A DNA stretch of 64,000 bases from an uncultured Acidobacteriia bacterium (GTDB lineage Bacteria; Acidobacteriota; Terriglobia; Bryobacterales; Bryobacteraceae): assembly GCA_903881085.1 (NCBI GenBank), contig CAIRSA010000558.1, forward strand, positions 1-64,000, in the 5' to 3' direction. The notes beneath the pieces are model-generated. The model had not been told where the DNA came from. It saw only the letters and a program-made list of their open reading frames with translations, and did not search any database. Each line of letters begins with the position of its first letter. Within the stretch, counting starts at the first letter, position 1. Below, piece by piece: positions 42,646 to 59,917 of this stretch. The translations under genes were made by a program, and so were the position numbers.

Positions 42646-43533
42646 ATGCCCGAACAGTGGCGCTATCGCGGACAAAGCATCGACAGCGAACAAGTGGCGG
42701 TTCTGAAAGAGTTCATCGCCGCGCACCCGGAAAGCAGCCGCTGGAAGTTATCGCGGCAGTTATGCGAAGCATTGGGCTGGAAGCAGCCCAATGGCGCGTT
42801 GCGCGACGTAGTGTGCCGCGGCTTACTGTTGATGTTGGAACGTGCCGGCCAGATCGAGTTGCCGCCGGTGCGCCGCATTATTCGCGGGCAGCGCCGCACT
42901 GCGCGCCCACGTCCGGCAGCGGTGTTGATCGACACCACGCCAATCCAGGTATGCTTCACTGAACTGGGGCCGGTGCAGTTGGAGCAGGTGCGGCGCACTG
43001 CCGATGAGGATCTGTTCAACAGCCTGATGGAGCACCATCATTATCTGGGCTACGAACAGCCAGTGGGCGAGCACTTGAAGTATCTGGCGTGGGCGCAAGG
43101 CCGGCCAGTGGCGTGTTTGGCGTGGTCCAGCGCACCGCGGCATCTTGGAGCGCGCGACCGGTTCATCGGCTGGACCAAGGAAGCGCGCAAGCAGAACATT
43201 CATCTGATCGCCTACAACACGCGGTTTCTGATTCTGCCATGGGTTCAAGTGCCGCATCTGGCTTCGCATATTCTGGGGCGGATGGCGCGGACGCTGTCGG
43301 CCGATTGGCAGCGGATCTATGCCCATCCGATACATCTGGTGGAAACGTTTGTGGATCCTACGCGATTCCAAGGGACCTGTTACCGCGCGGCGAACTGGAC
43401 CCTTGTGGGCAACACCACCGGGCGCGGTAAAGACGATCAAACACATCGCCAGAACCGGACGATCAAACAGGTGCTGGCCTTGCCGTTAACGCCCCAGTTC
43501 CGCCGTCTGCTGAGGAAGCTCCCGGATGAATAA
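42646..43533 (+). CDS. DruA-like (DUF4338) protein, IS66 passenger
   Basis: A 295-residue protein of the DUF4338 family, which includes DruA of the Druantia anti-phage system. Recognisable elements are the N-terminal WKLSRQLCEALGW helix-turn, DLFNSLMEHHHYLGY, YLAWAQGRPVACLAWSSAP, NTRFLILPWV and the catalytic-looking C-terminal ETFVDPTRFQGTCYRAANW. It sits 45 bp after tnpB and 5 bp before tnpC, so it travels with the element. No druB-E partners are nearby, so an anti-phage role cannot be claimed; it may help transposition or immunity of the IS. Confidence 0.75.
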   Translation: MPEQWRYRGQSIDSEQVAVLKEFIAAHPESSRWKLSRQLCEALGWKQPNGALRDVVCRGLLLMLERAGQIELPPVRRIIRGQRRTARPRPAAVLIDTTPIQVCFTELGPVQLEQVRRTADEDLFNSLMEHHHYLGYEQPVGEHLKYLAWAQGRPVACLAWSSAPRHLGARDRFIGWTKEARKQNIHLIAYNTRFLILPWVQVPHLASHILGRMARTLSADWQRIYAHPIHLVETFVDPTRFQGTCYRAANWTLVGNTTGRGKDDQTHRQNRTIKQVLALPLTPQFRRLLRKLPDE

Positions 43534-43538
43534 CGCCC

Positions 43539-45116
43539 ATGCCACAACGAATCGAAGCGCTCGATGTCAGCATTGAGGAGTTGGAGCAACTGGTGGACTG
43601 CGCCGGACAAGGGCCGTTGCCCACGGAAGGGCAGAGGAAGCTCAAAGCAGCGGTGGCCACGCTGGGCGTCATGGCCGCGATGTTGGCCGACAAGGACACA
43701 ACGATCCGGAAACTGCGCGAACTGCTGACGCCTACAAGAACCACCGAGAAGACCAAAAAGGTATTGGGCTCCGATGCCCCCGGGCAGGAGCCGCAGCCTA
43801 AGGCGGCAAGACGCAAGAAGGGACACGGCCGCAACGGCCCGGGCGCTTATACGGGCGCACGGAAAGTGCGCGTGGCCCACCCGGCAATGAAACGGGCCGA
43901 TCATTGCCCGGGGTGCAGGAAGGGAAAGTTGTACCCGCTCAACGAGCCAAAGAGGCTGATCCGGCTCATTGGCCAGGCGCCGGTTGAAGCCACTGTTTAC
44001 GAGCTGGATGCGTTGCGCTGCAACTTGTGCGGAGAGGTCTTCACCGCGCCGCCGCCGGCAGGAGTGGGTACGGAAAAGTACGACGCCAGCGCCGTGGGCA
44101 TGATCGCGTTATTGAAGTACGGCAGCGGCATTCCGTTTTACCGGCTGCAAAAACTGGAGAGCGATCTGGGGATTCCGTTGGCTCCGGCGACGCAATGGCA
44201 ACTGGTTGCGGAAGCGGCGGCGACGCTGGCGCCGGTAGAGGAAGAGTTGCTGCGGCAAGCGGCGCAAGGCAGTCTGGTGCACAACGACGACACCAGCATG
44301 CGGATTCTCAGTTATGAGCGGGAAGCCGGCGATGCGCGCACCGGGATGTTTACTTCCGGAGTTGTCAGTATAGTCGCCGGGCGCCGAGTCGCGGCTTTCT
44401 TCACCGGCAGCAAGCATGCGGGAGAAAATCTCGCCGATGTGTTGCGGCGGCGCGCCAAGGAACTGGCGCCGCCCATTCAGATGTGCGACGCGCTATCGCG
44501 CAACGTTCCGGCGGCGTTTGCGGTGATGCTCTCTAATTGCATGGCGCATGCCCGGCGCCACTTCGTGGACGTGGTGAACAGTTTTCCAGCCGAGTGCCGG
44601 TATGTGCTCGAAACGCTGCGCGGGGTGTTCCACTTCGATGCCCTGGCCAAGGAGCAAGCGTTGTCCCCGCAGGCGCGGTTGATCTTCCACCAACACAACA
44701 GCCAACCGCTGATGGAAGGTTTGCATGTGTGGTGTAAGCAGCAGTTCGAAGAGCGTAAAGTGGAGCCGAATTCGGGTTTGGGCAAAGCCATCCAATATCT
44801 GCTGAACCATTGGCCGGAGTTGACGCTGTTTCTTCGTGAGCCCGGTGCGCCGTTGGACAACAATGTTTGCGAACGGGCGCTGAAGAAGGCGATTCTACAC
44901 CGGAAAAACGCCTTGTTTTACCGAACCATCAACGGAGCCAGCGTTGGTGACCTGTTCATGACTTTGATTCACACCGCCGAACTCGGCGGCGTGAATCCGT
45001 TCGACTATCTCACGGAGCTACTGCGCCATCCCAGTGAGTTGGCGAAATCGCCCGCACGTTGGATGCCCTGGAATTACCGGGAAAACCTTGACCAGAAGGC
45101 CGATCTCGCCGCCTGA
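43539..45116 (+). CDS. tnpC: IS66 transposase TnpC (DDE)
   Basis: A 525-residue transposase. An N-terminal leucine-zipper-like region (DKDTTIRKLRELL), a zinc-binding site (CPGCRKGKLYPLN and a later CNLCGE), then the DDE core: HNDDTSMRIL (first Asp), QMCDALSRN (second) and PLDNNVCERALKKA (Glu). All parts are intact, so the element may be active. Confidence 0.93.
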   Translation: MPQRIEALDVSIEELEQLVDCAGQGPLPTEGQRKLKAAVATLGVMAAMLADKDTTIRKLRELLTPTRTTEKTKKVLGSDAPGQEPQPKAARRKKGHGRNGPGAYTGARKVRVAHPAMKRADHCPGCRKGKLYPLNEPKRLIRLIGQAPVEATVYELDALRCNLCGEVFTAPPPAGVGTEKYDASAVGMIALLKYGSGIPFYRLQKLESDLGIPLAPATQWQLVAEAAATLAPVEEELLRQAAQGSLVHNDDTSMRILSYEREAGDARTGMFTSGVVSIVAGRRVAAFFTGSKHAGENLADVLRRRAKELAPPIQMCDALSRNVPAAFAVMLSNCMAHARRHFVDVVNSFPAECRYVLETLRGVFHFDALAKEQALSPQARLIFHQHNSQPLMEGLHVWCKQQFEERKVEPNSGLGKAIQYLLNHWPELTLFLREPGAPLDNNVCERALKKAILHRKNALFYRTINGASVGDLFMTLIHTAELGGVNPFDYLTELLRHPSELAKSPARWMPWNYRENLDQKADLAA

Positions 45117-52619: not shown

Positions 52620-53024
52620 GCGGGCGCCACCCCGCACAATTCATCTTGCATGATCTTTAGGTTTCCATTCGGGGCAGTTGGCAAGATCTTCGGGCTTGGC
52701 CGTAATTTGGTTGTGGTCGCTAAGAGTCATTGAGAATTGGGCCGAAAGCTCATGATATTACGTTGGGGAGGCGGGTGTCGAAGACACGCTATACAGAGGC
52801 CCTGGCCCAGCGAATTTGATGCCCGTTTGTTCCCACTCTGCCTGCGGTTTCTCATAACCTGCCGCGATCCCTGGCCGTACCGCGAATCCCGTCAACGTCC
52901 TGCCCGCTCCATTCGCTTCGCTCCCGTGTTGTCCGTTCCCCTCCGGTGACGGGCTCCGCTATTGGTCCGGCCTTTCCATGTTCGCGTCATGAGAAACCCC
53001 GACGCAGAAACAGGAGAACAGACC
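52620..53024. other. Divergent intergenic region
   Basis: It separates the regulator from the ArdC-like gene and should contain their promoters. A GGAGAA (53012-53017) serves the next gene. No gene seen. Confidence 0.35.
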
Positions 53025-53927
53025 ATGAAGAATATCGAACGGCAAGACGTTTACACTCGCATCACCGGACAAATTATCCAATCACTCGAACAAGGCATTC
53101 GCCCCTGGGTCAAACCCTGGAATATTGATAACACCACCGGAAGAATTGTTCGGCCCATGCGCCATAATGGCCAAGCCTACTCTGGCATCAACGTGCTGAT
53201 GCTCTGGAGTGCGGCAGTCGAACAAGGCTTCACCTGCCCCGTCTGGATGACGTTCCAGCAGGCCATCGAAATGAAGGCGAACGTCCGCAAAGGACAAAAG
53301 GGTTCGCTCGTCGTATATGCGAACAAACTGACCCGCACCGAGGACGACGGTGAAGGAAACGAAGTTGAGCGTGAGATCCCCTTTATGAAGGGCTATACCG
53401 TTTTCAACGCGGAGCAGATCGAAGGTTTGCCTGCGACGTACTACACGAAGCCCGAGCCGATATTGACAGGCCCTTCACGCATCGACCATGCCGAAGCGTT
53501 CTTCGCCAACACCAAAGCGGACATCCGCATCCGGGGAGGACGTGCCTACTACGCGATTGATGATGACTTCATCGCCATGCCGCCGATTGAGAGCTTCCGC
53601 GACGCCGAGTCATTCTATTCCACCTTAGCTCATGAGTCTGTTCATTGGACACGGAATTGCAAACGACTAGATCGAGATTTCGGACGCAAGGCCTGGGGCG
53701 ACCAGGGCTACGCCCGCGAGGAACTCGTGGCTGAACTCGGTGCTGCTTTCCTTTGTGCGGACCTTGAACTTACGCCTGAAGTGCGTGATGATCATGCGGC
53801 CTACTTGGCCTCATGGCTTACCGTTCTCAAGAATGACAATCGCGCGATTTTCCAAGCCGCATCACACGCTCAGCGCGCCGTTGAATTCCTCCACGGACTC
53901 CAGAAGCCCAAAGCCGACGCTGCCTGA
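53025..53927 (+). CDS. ardC: ArdC-like antirestriction / zincin protein
   Basis: A 300-residue protein. The N-terminal domain (~1-130) matches the ArdC N-terminus: YTRITGQIIQSLEQGIRPWVKPW, YSGINVLMLW and VRKGQKGSLVVYANK. The C-terminal domain is a zincin-like metallopeptidase with HESVH near residue 203 and a downstream acidic REELVAELGAAFL. ArdC proteins shield incoming plasmid DNA from restriction. It lies between the helicase-methyltransferase and relaxase genes of the mobile element. Confidence 0.85.
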   Translation: MKNIERQDVYTRITGQIIQSLEQGIRPWVKPWNIDNTTGRIVRPMRHNGQAYSGINVLMLWSAAVEQGFTCPVWMTFQQAIEMKANVRKGQKGSLVVYANKLTRTEDDGEGNEVEREIPFMKGYTVFNAEQIEGLPATYYTKPEPILTGPSRIDHAEAFFANTKADIRIRGGRAYYAIDDDFIAMPPIESFRDAESFYSTLAHESVHWTRNCKRLDRDFGRKAWGDQGYAREELVAELGAAFLCADLELTPEVRDDHAAYLASWLTVLKNDNRAIFQAASHAQRAVEFLHGLQKPKADAA

Positions 53928-54408: not shown

Positions 54409-54800
54409 TCGTCATCCTCCTTGTTTAGGGTTAACTCAATCAGATCAATATGTGAGGCCTCCTCAGGTTTCAGCTCATCCTCGGCAACTGTCCCTTCCTG
54501 CACGAATCTCGCACGGTGCCGCCGCAACTTTTCGTATAACGGCAGCAGCCTCCTGCCCTCGACCAGCACAGTATCCAAGCCAAAAATCAACTTGAGCTGG
54601 TCGGCGGGCAGGTACTCAATTTTGACGAGATAGCTATAGCTCAGCGCGCACCGTGAGCCATTGCTGAATCGCACATCGAGCATGAGATCGTCCTGGGTCT
54701 GCTTGCGTCCCGTGGCATAGGCCTCGCGCACCGTGTCTTCCTGTTCAGAATTTCCTGGCGCTGCGCTACCTCGCCGTGGTCCATCATAAGCTCCGGCCAT
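54405..54800 (-). CDS. Uncharacterised 131-aa protein of the relaxase operon
   Basis: ATG 54800 lies 17 bp inside the 3' end of the relaxase gene. A soluble acidic protein with a beta-rich middle (LDVRFSNGSRCALSYSYLVKIEYL) and a helical C-terminus. No motif recognised; tight coupling on both sides indicates a function with the relaxase. Confidence 0.6.
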   Translation of the reverse strand: MAGAYDGPRRGSAAPGNSEQEDTVREAYATGRKQTQDDLMLDVRFSNGSRCALSYSYLVKIEYLPADQLKLIFGLDTVLVEGRRLLPLYEKLRRHRARFVQEGTVAEDELKPEEASHIDLIELTLNKEDDE

Positions 54801-57594
54801 AGTCCATCTCCTTTCTGAATCTTGGTGGCACGATATCCCGGCCCCGTTCTCTGAGGACCTGATAGTTCTCGCGAAGACGCTGCACACGCAACATCTCGTG
54901 CAATTTACTGAAGCGTTTAGCATGCGTTTTGTGGGTATGTCCCTTGAGCAGCTCCGTGGCCGACAGTCGCTCGCTGCTTGCCCGCACTGCATCGATCATG
55001 GCTTGCTTGTCGTCAGTGTAGAGCTTCACCGATTCGCGGCCGCGCGAAACGGAAACATAGACCTGCGCGCGATTGACCGCCGCGAACGAGTCCTGCCCCA
55101 TCGCCACAAAAACCTTGTCCACCGTTTTTCCCTGAGAAGCATGGCTCGTACTGGTGTACCCATAGTTGAGGTGGCCGTAATCCTTGGACACCACGAATCC
55201 GTTCGTGAGCCGTATGTCACCGTCATCGGTGAATCCGGCCACCCTATACACCGCGCCATTGTTGAGGCGGGCTTTGGCCTGCTTGCCCGTCCGAGTTGTT
55301 TCCTTGGTGTAGCCGTTTTGGGTGATGCGCACGAGGTCACCTGCGGCCAGCTCTAACGCTGCCTGCCGGTAAACCTGGAACCGCTCCGCATCCGCGAGCG
55401 TGAGTGTCGCCTGCGTTCCACTGGCACGCTTCACTCTCACGACGTCCCCTTCGTGCCCGAGAACGTCCACTTTTTCGCCGCGTTTGATGCCTTTCACATT
55501 TTGATGGAACTGCACTACCAGACCGGGCTGATACAGTGAAGCATCCTTGCGTTGAGCCGTTGTCCAGTTTGCATTTTCGAGCGCAGTAAACTCGCATTCC
55601 GATGCAGCCAATCGACCCTGTTCTTTCAGCTCGGCCCGAATGAATCCAGTTATCTGGTCGCCTTCCGCATGTGTCGGCGCCACTACAATTGCACTTTTCG
55701 CCGAGCCATCGCTCTTCCGCTCCGATACAGCCTCTAGATAATCGTGCGCCATTTGCCTGTAAAGCTCATCGCCACTCATTTCGACAATGGCCCCCATGCT
55801 GTCGAGTGCGGCAATTCCTAGCGCGAGCTTGGTCGTACGCTTGCCATCTTTCACAGCAGGCGCGTCCCCCTGACTAATGGCTTGGACCGCATCGCGGTAG
55901 GCGGCGTTCGTTTGACGCCGTACCTCTTTCAACTCGGCGAACGATAGACCGGATTCTTCTTCGATGATGCGAAGCGCATCGCCACGTGCGACCGACGCAT
56001 GCTGATTTTTATCGCCCGCTAGTATCACCCGGCAGTTCTGTTCTTTCGCAAGTGCAAAGAGCCGTAGCGTGTCTTTCACTGAAAGAAGCCCGGCCTCGTC
56101 AATCCATAGCACCTGGCCGCTGACTCTCTCGCGCATTCTATCGTCAGAAAGTAGCCTCTCAACCGTGTCGGCATTGGCGAAGCCCTCTTCGCGCAGCACA
56201 CCCCGCGAAGCTTCCGCCGAAGGCGCGAAGGTGAACACTTCGCGGCCACTCCCTTGAATCGCAGCAATGGTTGCCTGCATCATGCGCGTCTTACCCGTAC
56301 CAGCACCGCCGCGCAGGCCGATGACCCGATCGCGAGAGAGGAGAATCTTCTCCGCTGCCGCGTGTTGCTCGCGGCTGAGTCCTACATCGAGGGCCAGGTT
56401 TGGACCTGCCAGCTTTTTGCAGGTGCCCCTGCCCTCACGCACAAAATCGACCATTTCCATTTCCTGGCGGTATACCTGTTTCGTTGTTGCGTAACTCACT
56501 CCGCCGTTCTCTTTCAAGATCACGTCGCCGCGTTGCGATTCGTGGTGAACGTCTTCCACTGAAACCGTGCCAACGCCGTGCATCAATGCCTCAGCCAGGA
56601 GTTGCTTTTCGCGGACGACCGATTCACGCTCGAAGCATTGCTCCGTCGCGTGATCGAGCGCTTGTATGGCGGTGACCGCATCGCCTTTCTCGTACCCTTG
56701 CGCGGCGCGTAGCGACTGCCGATCCTCTGCCGTCAACCGCTCTTGCCACTGCGCGCGAAGGTCACCGATGCTGAGGTCCGCATTCTTCGCCTTACGCGTT
56801 TGACGACCCAGCTCACTCTTGCGCTTGGGATCGGTGATTTGACGGCGCGCGGCCTCCTCTTCAATGACCTGAGACCGGCGTGAGAACTTTTCAGTTAGAC
56901 TGTCCTCGATGCCTCTCAAGCAGAAGCTCTTGCCGTCGCGTTCGACCGCGTAACCAAGCTCTGATAACTTCATGCCCAATCGTGCATGAAACGCAGCTTG
57001 GTAATAGGTGGCATCCCGCTTGATGGCGCTGAACTCGCCGGCCTTCCAGCAGCCCTCATCGGCGTCATAACTTAGGTTCATTGCAACGGCATGTATGTGG
57101 AGTTGTGGATCTGGAACTCCGTCAGCAAGAGGCCGGGTTGTACGGTGTACGAACTCCGCCCAAACCATGTTGCCGGTCACGCGATCATGGGACTGTCCAC
57201 GCTTCCTTACGCGCACGGCCATTGACTGCTCAACCTCGGCCATCGTCTCGCGCACGGACGTCTGAAAGGCTTCCAGGATACGTGCGTCGCCGCCCAGTTC
57301 GAATGCGAGCGTAACTGACTTCGGAGCATCCCAGGTGAAGTCATACGTAACTCTTCGATTTGCTTTCATCCTGGCGCTAAGTTGCTCGCCGGTGAAGGGG
57401 TGCTGGTTGTCGCATAACCGGTCGAAGCAATCCCGGTCCACCGGTCCTTCAAGCCCCAGCGCCGCAGCCCCCAGACCATGCCACAGACCGGTGATCTGCT
57501 GGCCGTCCTTCATGTAGTAATTTGCCTGCGCCAGCTCCTGCTTGAAGTAGTCCTTGGCTGCCTGGCTGTTCGAGGTGTGGTTGATGAATAACAT
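54784..57594 (-). CDS. MobF-family conjugative relaxase (TrwC/TraI-like)
   Basis: A 936-residue relaxase-helicase. The N-terminus (MLFINHTSNSQAAKDYF, ANYYM) holds the catalytic tyrosines, the DPQLHIHAV segment near residue 165 gives the metal-binding histidines, and the RecD2-like helicase has RGGAGTGKTR near 426 and IDEAGLL near 495, ending with SF1 motifs (YTSTSHASQG). It would nick oriT and lead the strand during transfer. I chose ATG 57594, which matches other MobF starts; an ATG at 57633 adds 13 residues. No type IV secretion or coupling protein gene is in the window. Confidence 0.92.
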   Translation of the reverse strand: MLFINHTSNSQAAKDYFKQELAQANYYMKDGQQITGLWHGLGAAALGLEGPVDRDCFDRLCDNQHPFTGEQLSARMKANRRVTYDFTWDAPKSVTLAFELGGDARILEAFQTSVRETMAEVEQSMAVRVRKRGQSHDRVTGNMVWAEFVHRTTRPLADGVPDPQLHIHAVAMNLSYDADEGCWKAGEFSAIKRDATYYQAAFHARLGMKLSELGYAVERDGKSFCLRGIEDSLTEKFSRRSQVIEEEAARRQITDPKRKSELGRQTRKAKNADLSIGDLRAQWQERLTAEDRQSLRAAQGYEKGDAVTAIQALDHATEQCFERESVVREKQLLAEALMHGVGTVSVEDVHHESQRGDVILKENGGVSYATTKQVYRQEMEMVDFVREGRGTCKKLAGPNLALDVGLSREQHAAAEKILLSRDRVIGLRGGAGTGKTRMMQATIAAIQGSGREVFTFAPSAEASRGVLREEGFANADTVERLLSDDRMRERVSGQVLWIDEAGLLSVKDTLRLFALAKEQNCRVILAGDKNQHASVARGDALRIIEEESGLSFAELKEVRRQTNAAYRDAVQAISQGDAPAVKDGKRTTKLALGIAALDSMGAIVEMSGDELYRQMAHDYLEAVSERKSDGSAKSAIVVAPTHAEGDQITGFIRAELKEQGRLAASECEFTALENANWTTAQRKDASLYQPGLVVQFHQNVKGIKRGEKVDVLGHEGDVVRVKRASGTQATLTLADAERFQVYRQAALELAAGDLVRITQNGYTKETTRTGKQAKARLNNGAVYRVAGFTDDGDIRLTNGFVVSKDYGHLNYGYTSTSHASQGKTVDKVFVAMGQDSFAAVNRAQVYVSVSRGRESVKLYTDDKQAMIDAVRASSERLSATELLKGHTHKTHAKRFSKLHEMLRVQRLRENYQVLRERGRDIVPPRFRKEMDYGRSL

Positions 57595-57821
57595 CGGTGA
57601 TCTCGCGTCAGTTAGTGAAAGGGTTAATTGCATCTTACATTAAGACTGGTTAAGAAATCGTTAAAAAAGGATTTACGGGTAGACATCTCTCCTAAGCGCT
57701 GCTTGAGGTTCGATTCAGAAAAGTCACCAGGGTATTTCGCGGAGACCTTCCAGCATTGTAGGGAACAATTGAATGATCGCCGTTGGAGAGGCTGACGTGC
57801 GATTTTGGACGCTGAGAGTAG
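57595..57821. other. Divergent region upstream of the relaxase
   Basis: Should hold the relaxase promoter and possibly the origin of transfer. No obvious inverted repeat of the kind used by MobF relaxases was seen. Confidence 0.35.
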
Positions 57822-58396
57822 AGATGGTTTGTCGAGAAAACCTACGCGCAGTACGCGGCACACGCAAACCGTGAACGAGCTAACCTCGAAAAACCCAAAG
57901 ACCTCAACGGAATCACCGGCGAGCAACTACCAGTGGCCGGAACAATCCAGCGCACCAACACCAAAGTCACGATCACGCTGGACACTCCCATCACGATCAA
58001 GATCGGGATCTCAGAACGGTACACCAAGGACATTATCTTCAGCGCTTTCGCACAACACCACGCGCAATACTACCGAGAACTCCTCCGACAAGAAGCGTTC
58101 CAACACGCCATCACGCACCTACAGCATGCACTCGAAAAGCGATCCGGAGAATGCTACGTCATCAACATGGCAAAAGCAGGACACCACCACTCAGAAAGCA
58201 ACCCACGAGAATTGGAAGTAAAAAACATCCTCGTCCGATTCAACGACACGAGCAACCTCCAACAACTAAAGAACGTGCTCTACCAGATCCGCTGCAACGT
58301 CTTCCACGGAGAAAAGTCCCAGGCAAACTGAACGACGACCGCATCGTAAAAACGGCAACACCCGTGCTTCGAGCAATTCTCCGCACGCTTGTTTAA
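57822..58396 (+). pseudogene. Frameshifted HEPN-domain protein gene
   Basis: The frame open from 57822 (after a TAG) reads FVEKTYAQYAAHANRERAN..., then SRYTKDII-like helices and a C-terminal NVLYQIRCNVFHGEKS. The RCNVFH segment is the Rx4-6H catalytic motif of HEPN ribonuclease domains. The expected tail (PGKLNDDRIVKTATPVLRAIL) lies in another frame up to 58396, so one base appears missing in the C run at 58318-58320. At the 5' end an ATG at 57824 would join the frame if one base near 57827 were removed. The gene is thus probably broken or affected by sequence error. About 165 residues in total. Confidence 0.6.
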
Positions 58397-58547: not shown

Positions 58548-58775
58548 ATGACGCACACTTTCCCACCGCGAGATTCAATGAAGCACGCCGTTGAGAACGC
58601 TCAACCGCGTTTAATGGCAACCACTAACACCGACCCATTTGCAGCAAAGATCAGAATGGCAAGCGCTGTGAAGTCGAAATGCGAAGAGTTCAATATCTGG
58701 CATGCCGCCGCAGACAACGTCACAGCAAATGGAACCGATATCGCCTGGGGCAGCATCACCAAAAGAATCGAATAA
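58548..58775 (+). CDS. Candidate RiPP precursor peptide
   Basis: A 75-residue peptide from ATG 58548 (GAGAAG upstream), 41 bp before a radical SAM/SPASM gene. The first ~45 residues look like a leader (hydrophilic, Met and Lys rich); the C-terminal ~30 residues (FNIWHAAADNVTANGTDIAW then GSITKRIE) hold two aromatic sites, NIW and IAW, suitable for side-chain crosslinks by a cyclophane-forming maturase (triceptide type). It has no GG cleavage motif. Size, position and composition fit a precursor, but no family matches. Confidence 0.6.
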   Translation: MTHTFPPRDSMKHAVENAQPRLMATTNTDPFAAKIRMASAVKSKCEEFNIWHAAADNVTANGTDIAWGSITKRIE

Positions 58776-58816
58776 GCACGCCGCACACCTGGGCGCGAGC
58801 AAAACGGAACGTTAAT

Positions 58817-59917
58817 GTGAAAATAGTAACGACGTTTCACCCCACACCTTTCTGCAATCTCAATTGCAGCTACTGCTGGGCACCAAATAGGACCGCGACC
58901 ACCAAAATGAGCATCGACTTGGTTGAAAAAACACTCGACCAAGTCTACAGCAACAACGCACTCTGCAGCATGGACGTCCTCTGGCTAACGGGCGAGCCAC
59001 TCGTGCTGGGAGTCCCGTATTTCCGTCAAGTGGTCGATCTGTGCCTCGAAAAAGCACCGCCAAACATGCGCCCACAATTCATCGTACAAACGAACGGGAC
59101 ATTGATCGACGAAAACTGGTGCGATTTCTTCACATCGCACGACTTCATCGTAGGCGTCAGCGTTGACGGCCCAGCCATTATTCACGACAAACAACGACTA
59201 TCGCTTCTTGGGAAGCCATCATTTCCGGACGTGGAACGCGGCATCGATCTGCTGATCAAGAAAGGCGTCAGAGGAGGGGCTATTTGTGTCATTACCAAGG
59301 CCACGCTCAGCCTCCCTCCTGATGAACTCTTCCGCTTTTTTCAGGAGAAGAACATCGCATGGAGTTACCTGCTCGAAGCGTCTATTGGCGACAACAAAAG
59401 CTCGCCCAGCGCATTGACGGCTGACGATCTCCCAAGCCTCGACCGATACTTGGATCGCTTGCTCGACTTGTGGGCAGCACACCCCGATTCGTACATCCGA
59501 GACTTCGAACAAATCAGCCGACGCATTTTCGGAGGAGCCCAGCCGCGACCGGATGCAGACAATTTGGGTTGCCTGGACATCCTCAACGTGTCCGCAAACG
59601 GGGATTTCTATTGGGGAAACCCCGAACTTATGACGGCAACCCTTGGCCCACTCACCGACATCAGATTCAACCTCGAACGCGACGACGTGTGGCGAATCCG
59701 ATCAAACCCAAAATTCACTGCGTACCAACACCAAGTTCACGAAGGGGTGAAACAATGCCGCGAACAATGCACCTACTTCGAAGGCTGCCAAGGCGGCAAC
59801 CCCGCGCACAAATTTTACGAATTCGGATCCTTCGATGTAACCGCCCACACCAGCTGCAGACTGAACGACCAACTCGTTCAAACACTCATGACCCGAAAAC
59901 TCACCATCGCAAACTAG
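58817..59917 (+). CDS. Radical SAM/SPASM peptide maturase
   Basis: A 366-residue protein starting with GTG 58817, in the only sensible in-frame start. The radical SAM cluster-binding CxxxCxxC is CNLNCSYC (Cys13, 17, 20). A C-terminal SPASM-like domain has GCLDILNVSANGDFYWGN and later cysteines in CREQCTYFEGC and SCRLN, for extra Fe-S clusters. Such enzymes modify RiPP precursors; the C-terminal signature resembles the XyeB/GrrM/FxsB-type that forms three-residue cyclophanes, a tentative call. It follows the 75-aa peptide gene. No transporter or protease gene follows. Confidence 0.85.
   Translation: MKIVTTFHPTPFCNLNCSYCWAPNRTATTKMSIDLVEKTLDQVYSNNALCSMDVLWLTGEPLVLGVPYFRQVVDLCLEKAPPNMRPQFIVQTNGTLIDENWCDFFTSHDFIVGVSVDGPAIIHDKQRLSLLGKPSFPDVERGIDLLIKKGVRGGAICVITKATLSLPPDELFRFFQEKNIAWSYLLEASIGDNKSSPSALTADDLPSLDRYLDRLLDLWAAHPDSYIRDFEQISRRIFGGAQPRPDADNLGCLDILNVSANGDFYWGNPELMTATLGPLTDIRFNLERDDVWRIRSNPKFTAYQHQVHEGVKQCREQCTYFEGCQGGNPAHKFYEFGSFDVTAHTSCRLNDQLVQTLMTRKLTIAN

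Follow-up and report, generated by a model that had tools for sequence, protein, structure and literature searches.

Organization of the locus and its genomic setting

The window considered here is the whole stretch of 64,000 nucleotides that was analysed, from an uncultured Acidobacteriia bacterium. Two ORFs follow each other on its forward strand. The first one, at 58548-58775, is a candidate precursor ORF of 75 aa (MTHTF...ITKRIE*), with alternative ATG starts at 58578 and 58614. The second one, at 58817-59917, is a radical SAM/SPASM maturase gene with a GTG start, encoding 366 aa and recognized by its sequence, family match, position in the tree and predicted fold. The gap between the two ORFs corresponds to 41 bp (58776-58816), and the ORF coordinates agree with an initial, sequence-only reading that had placed a peptide 41 bp upstream of a radical SAM/SPASM gene. 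At its GTG start, the maturase lines up with a Nostoc GrrM that also begins with GTG (VKIVTTFHPTPFCN / VKQLIILQPTPFCN); the frame stays open further upstream, to an ATG at 58679.

The same reading had described the DNA of the pair as different in composition from its surroundings, and the measurements bear this out. The GC content, 0.50-0.53 in this stretch, rises to 0.54-0.58 towards the relaxase and to 0.63 on the opposite flank, and the stretch is strongly C/A-skewed (GC skew about -0.17, AT skew 0.16-0.29). The left neighbour of the pair, on the opposite strand, is a TrwC-type relaxase/helicase gene (54784-57633). Further left, on the + strand, a plasmid backbone gene encodes an ArdC-type antirestriction protein (ArdcN + MPTase-PolyVal, 52962-53927). 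To the right, the same 95-kb contig carries a gene for a BACON-domain protein, then Rep3, ParA-like, VirB4-like, CagX, and TrbI genes. Thanks to this gene content, from the relaxase to TrbI, the contig looks like a conjugative plasmid, of which the maturase/peptide pair would be a cargo. No transporter or protease gene was seen beside the pair.

The ORF at 57933-58331 (+ strand) is open from about 57828, has no in-frame upstream ATG and has no Pfam match. It is probably a truncated remnant within the same skewed stretch as the pair. A stretch in its C-terminal part, LYQIRCNVFHGEK, resembles the RxxxxH motif of HEPN-type proteins. Elsewhere in the window, a gene at 42646-43533 (+ strand) encodes a DruA (Druantia) domain protein (Pfam PF14236, 3e-35), adjoined by a transposase-like ORF at 43539-45116.

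Family and phylogenetic position of the maturase

All NCBIfam matches of the maturase, including those to other peptide maturases, are below the curated cut-offs. The best one is to GrrM/OscB (TIGR04261), with 243.9 bits (E 2.5e-72) for a cut-off of 310. Among the relatives that were rescored, those of GrrM type reach 378-437 bits and the one of AmcB type 473 bits, as is normal for these families. AmcB (NF041718), the second-best family, gives 197.4 bits for a cut-off of 425. Scores on FxsB, XyeB, and YhhB are 106, 66, and 134 bits as against cut-offs of 370, 450, and 445, respectively, and the score on the anaerobic sulfatase maturase is 160 as against 349 bits.

The tree was built with the maturase and with GrrM, AmcB, FxsB/YhhB-type, darobactin-type and sulfatase-maturase rows, XyeB having no row. 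In this tree, the maturase forms a clade with GrrM/OscB and AmcB (support 100/99), outside the anSME-type clade and apart from the darobactin-type maturase L017. Within the clade, the maturase is sister to GrrM and AmcB, which exclude it at 96/89. Grouping of the maturase with GrrM alone, AmcB being left out, is not rejected (p-AU 0.159). Thus, the maturase would be either a sister lineage to GrrM and AmcB or a very divergent GrrM. Its branch is long, with 2.1-2.6 changes per site. An affiliation to FxsB, hinted at by the two leucines at positions 185-186, was considered and discarded, as the grouping with FxsB/YhhB-type rows is rejected (AU p 0.0012). The description of the locus as a compact, RiPP-like radical SAM/SPASM pair is retained, with the enzyme now placed in the cyclophane-forming GrrM/AmcB lineage.

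Conserved and replaced residues

The maturase has the intact cysteines of a triceptide-type radical SAM/SPASM enzyme. The CxxxCxxC radical SAM [4Fe-4S] motif (C13-C17-C20, 58853-58876, + strand) is invariant in 15/15 aligned GrrM/AmcB-type proteins, and the C-terminal SPASM cysteines C314, C318, C324, and C347 (59756-59857, + strand) are invariant with GrrM/AmcB. R228, the SPASM core and PEL, a derived motif common to GrrM, are also retained. On another hand, four residues identical in all 14 comparison sequences, H57, N185, E188, and E190, are replaced in the maturase (H57L, N185L, E188A, E190I). H57L sits in the GGEP region, whereas the other three changes affect β-strand 6, where the F-N-x-E-E-x-E-G motif of the clade becomes Y-L-L-E-A-S-I-G.

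In the AlphaFold2 model (mean pLDDT 84), the changed stretch is on strand 182-186. The PDB structure closest to the predicted fold is that of ChlB bound to the leader of its precursor (9gm3, TM 0.81). Residues 57, 185, 188, and 190 may contact the substrate. The loss of these clade-invariant residues could reflect either a different chemistry or decay.

Relatives of the maturase and their precursors

Relatives of the maturase in genomes of the same class and in plasmids show 25-34% overall identity, the best local match reaching 36%. A search of 84,980 species (one genome per species, with exact short peptide patterns) gave no close relative. No relative closer than about 36% was found in 396 genomes of the phylum, 399 of the class, 257 of the order and 237 of the family (these sets overlap), nor among plasmids, phages and viral contigs. 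In the host genome, the sole other relative is a sulfatase-maturase-type protein.

Upstream of the maturase, each of the 13 GrrM-type loci examined (L003-L013, L015, L016) has a precursor ORF on the same strand, with an Ω-x-N core. The leader motif is present in nearly all of these precursors, short ones included (L011, with E-W-D-N-F, and L013). Two IMG/VR contigs classed as viral, L052 (2682-4104) and L053, show a GrrM-type maturase after a 67-aa ORF. In this ORF, the leader reads IARLDAIRSAV and FRN occurs as the sole site; the ORF before a GrrM-type gene on a viral contig ends with G-Q-F-R-N-G, and that of L052 is a plausible precursor. In the AmcB-type relative (L021), the precursor is downstream and rich in W-D-N repeats; at a Streptomyces plasmid locus (L039), no upstream precursor was recognized. 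Conservation of the 75-aa peptide beside related maturases, to which the sequence-only reading had tied its proposal, was not found, the relatives having GrrA-type W-x-N precursors. This comparison has little force, about 36% being the highest identity reached by any relative.

The candidate precursor peptide

When the upstream stretch is shuffled, an ORF with 75 codons or more that ends at most 150 bp before the start of the radical SAM gene arises in 13% of cases; length alone is thus weak evidence for coding. With a positional-nucleotide score trained on the radical SAM gene, the 75-codon frame beats the other five frames and all 240 intergenic windows tested (maximum -0.5). Its score is, however, just +1.0 bits, as compared with 12-22 for windows of a neighbouring ORF. 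The signal is confined to the last 34 codons (+6.3), the first 41 codons giving -5.4. It may therefore be envisaged that the true start of the peptide is M11 (58578) or M23 (58614).

As had been noticed initially, the peptide does not resemble Xye, Grr or Fxs precursors; the NCBIfam search found no match to these or to other precursor families. Nothing was matched in the PDB, and only one sub-threshold, irrelevant model in Pfam. Among plasmids, the search returned two insignificant stretches alone (E 2-3). Two matches in viral contigs are antisense to a larger ORF and have no maturase nearby; they were judged to be due to chance. A resemblance by eye of PFAAKIRMASAV to a GrrA leader was ruled out by two tests, the score of the peptide on a GrrA-leader profile being close to the median of shuffles and a PSSM test giving p about 0.48. 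The genuine GrrM partner precursor at L013 likewise fails the leader test, so that this failure alone does not exclude a role as substrate. Around the maturase, no better precursor candidate was found, and the surrounding few kb contain, on both strands, no ORF combining a GrrA-type leader and core. Among the small ORFs close upstream, the 75-aa one alone has two Trp sites in its C-terminal part.

Candidate crosslink sites

In three-residue cyclophanes, residues i and i+2 are crosslinked, the aromatic residue coming first and being joined to the Cβ of residue i+2 (PMC11002830, a 2024 review). The sites initially proposed in the peptide, NIW and IAW, are the wrong way round with respect to this rule. 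Because known cyclophanes join aromatic i to i+2, the candidate sites are read here as W51-H52-A53 (58698-58706), overlapping H52-A53-A54 (58701-58709), and W67-G68-S69 (58746-58754), all on the + strand and within the last 25 residues of the peptide. The pairs listed in the review are Trp-Asn/Asp/Arg, Phe-Asn/Ser, Tyr-Asp/Arg, and His-Ala/Arg, and His-Ala-Ala is a natural substrate site. Other enzymes forming three-residue cyclophanes provide precedents for Ala and Ser at X3, such as Phe-x-Ser with MscB; no Trp-Ala or Trp-Ser pair is listed (PMC11002830). The peptide has no Ω-x-N site. Motifs as loose as aromatic-X-X3 are common, and W-H-A, H-A-A, and W-G-S occur here in a maturase-adjacent ORF. 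At X2, the candidate sites have H and G, as do acidobacterial GrrA repeats (WHN, WGN); they differ from these by X3 alone, N being changed to A or S.

Interpretation of the locus

The best reading is that of a divergent triceptide-type locus. We consider it somewhat probable that the pair is a minimal RiPP locus carried as plasmid cargo, where the peptide would be the substrate and would acquire cyclophanes at W51-H-A/H52-A-A and W67-G-S. The steps beyond the two ORFs and the GrrM-side enzyme are drawn by analogy with the family. The maturase would bind the peptide, of 75 aa or fewer, by its N-terminal part and would cleave SAM. The resulting 5′-deoxyadenosyl radical would abstract a Cβ hydrogen two residues after the aromatic residue, and the Cβ carbon would be joined to the indole or imidazole ring. 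A strained ring would be formed once or twice, so that W51-H-A (or H52-A-A), W67-G-S or both would carry a three-residue cyclophane. Trimming and export would rely on host genes elsewhere. From the initial proposal of a triceptide with two rings, the assignment of the enzyme to a cyclophane-forming lineage is kept, the NIW and IAW sites are abandoned, and the peptide is retained as a putative substrate.

The cyclophane chemistry is supported by the clade formed with GrrM and AmcB, the kept cysteines, the PEL motif and the ChlB-like fold. The lost clade-invariant residues weaken this reading, as do the missing Ω-x-N site and the fact that no related precursor was found. On the basis of the changes in β-strand 6 and at H57, and of the lack of a canonical Ω-x-N site, it may be imagined that the maturase makes another bond on the peptide, for instance a dynobactin/darobactin-type Trp link, an epimerisation or an oxidation. 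This appears rather improbable: the maturase lies in the GrrM/AmcB clade, apart from the darobactin-type L017, and aromatic-x-Ala and aromatic-x-Ser cyclophanes have precedent (PMC11002830). The same lost residues, together with the long branch and the truncated appearance of the ORF at 57933-58331, could also indicate a decaying relic, in which a horizontally acquired maturase and a degraded precursor would have lost their function on the plasmid. The frame is, however, open at full length, with the cluster cysteines, R228, PEL, and the SPASM core all kept, and the predicted fold is confident, so that only a slim chance is left to decay.

The identity of the substrate calls for a separate argument. 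Absence of a GrrA-like leader, a weak N-terminal coding signal and the lack of a transporter or protease beside the pair weaken the preferred reading. The first two of these observations, with the 13% chance of obtaining such an ORF, would fit a functional, GrrM/AmcB-side maturase for which the 75-codon ORF is not the substrate, the true precursor being elsewhere or lost. We hold this to be unlikely. In the 13 GrrM-type relatives, a precursor immediately precedes the maturase, and L052 has a plausible one. No ORF with a GrrA-type leader and core is available within a few kb, the genome has no further relative of the maturase than a protein of the sulfatase-maturase type, and the 75-aa ORF has its two C-terminal Trp sites.

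A more specific version of the preferred reading, tentative and on the doubtful side, is that the maturase represents a third, so far undescribed lineage beside GrrM and AmcB, spread by conjugation, with a single short peptide and an altered substrate pocket that would go along with a new Trp-to-Ala/Ser Cβ site. The altered pocket is suggested by the missing F-N-x-E-E-x-E-G strand and the missing His of the GGEP region.

Comparison with known systems and significance

The closest known system is GrrM/OscB (TIGR04261; IPR026357), with the best family match, a sister clade, a small precursor upstream on the same strand, C-terminal cysteines and the PEL motif in common, and plasmid-borne members (Nostoc, Phaeobacter, Streptomyces). 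The window maturase differs from it in having none of H57, N185, E188, and E190 and in scoring below the cut-off. GrrA precursors have an RLxxIRxAV leader and Ω-x-N repeats, whereas the window peptide has neither. AmcB belongs to the same clade and is the second-best family, but its cut-off is far from reached. The HAA and aromatic-x-Ser motifs of the peptide recall the His-Ala-Ala and Phe-x-Ser sites of HaaB/ScaB and MscB substrates (PMC11002830); the window maturase, however, groups apart from FxsB/YhhB-type enzymes (AU p 0.0012). Finally, ChlB (9gm3, 9gmc) has the closest solved fold, determined with the precursor leader, but shares 24% identity and shows FLLPDA, as in FxsB/YhhB-type rows, in place of YLLEAS.

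The kind of system is thus already known, and the lineage and the type of site would be new. Should the pair prove active, the Trp-using enzymes that form three-residue cyclophanes would gain a deep lineage. It would then become possible to probe what residues determine the choice of the second crosslinked position (Asn/Asp or Ala/Ser), and strained Trp cyclophanes could be made with a minimal system of two genes. The pair is moreover one more sign, in this analysis, that cassettes of this kind travel on plasmids.

Other plasmid-borne maturases

The darobactin-type (DarW/DarE) maturase L017 (2001-3128) is unannotated on plasmid p1 of Cupriavidus sp. KK10 and scores 318 bits on NF041300, for a cut-off of 650. 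YhhB/FxsB-type maturases below the family cut-offs occur on Calothrix brevissima plasmid6 (L047, 1014-2640) and on a Polymorphobacter plasmid (L049, 1103-2655). In both cases a small ORF lies upstream and other genes are few or absent, so that these are similar orphan two-gene pairs.
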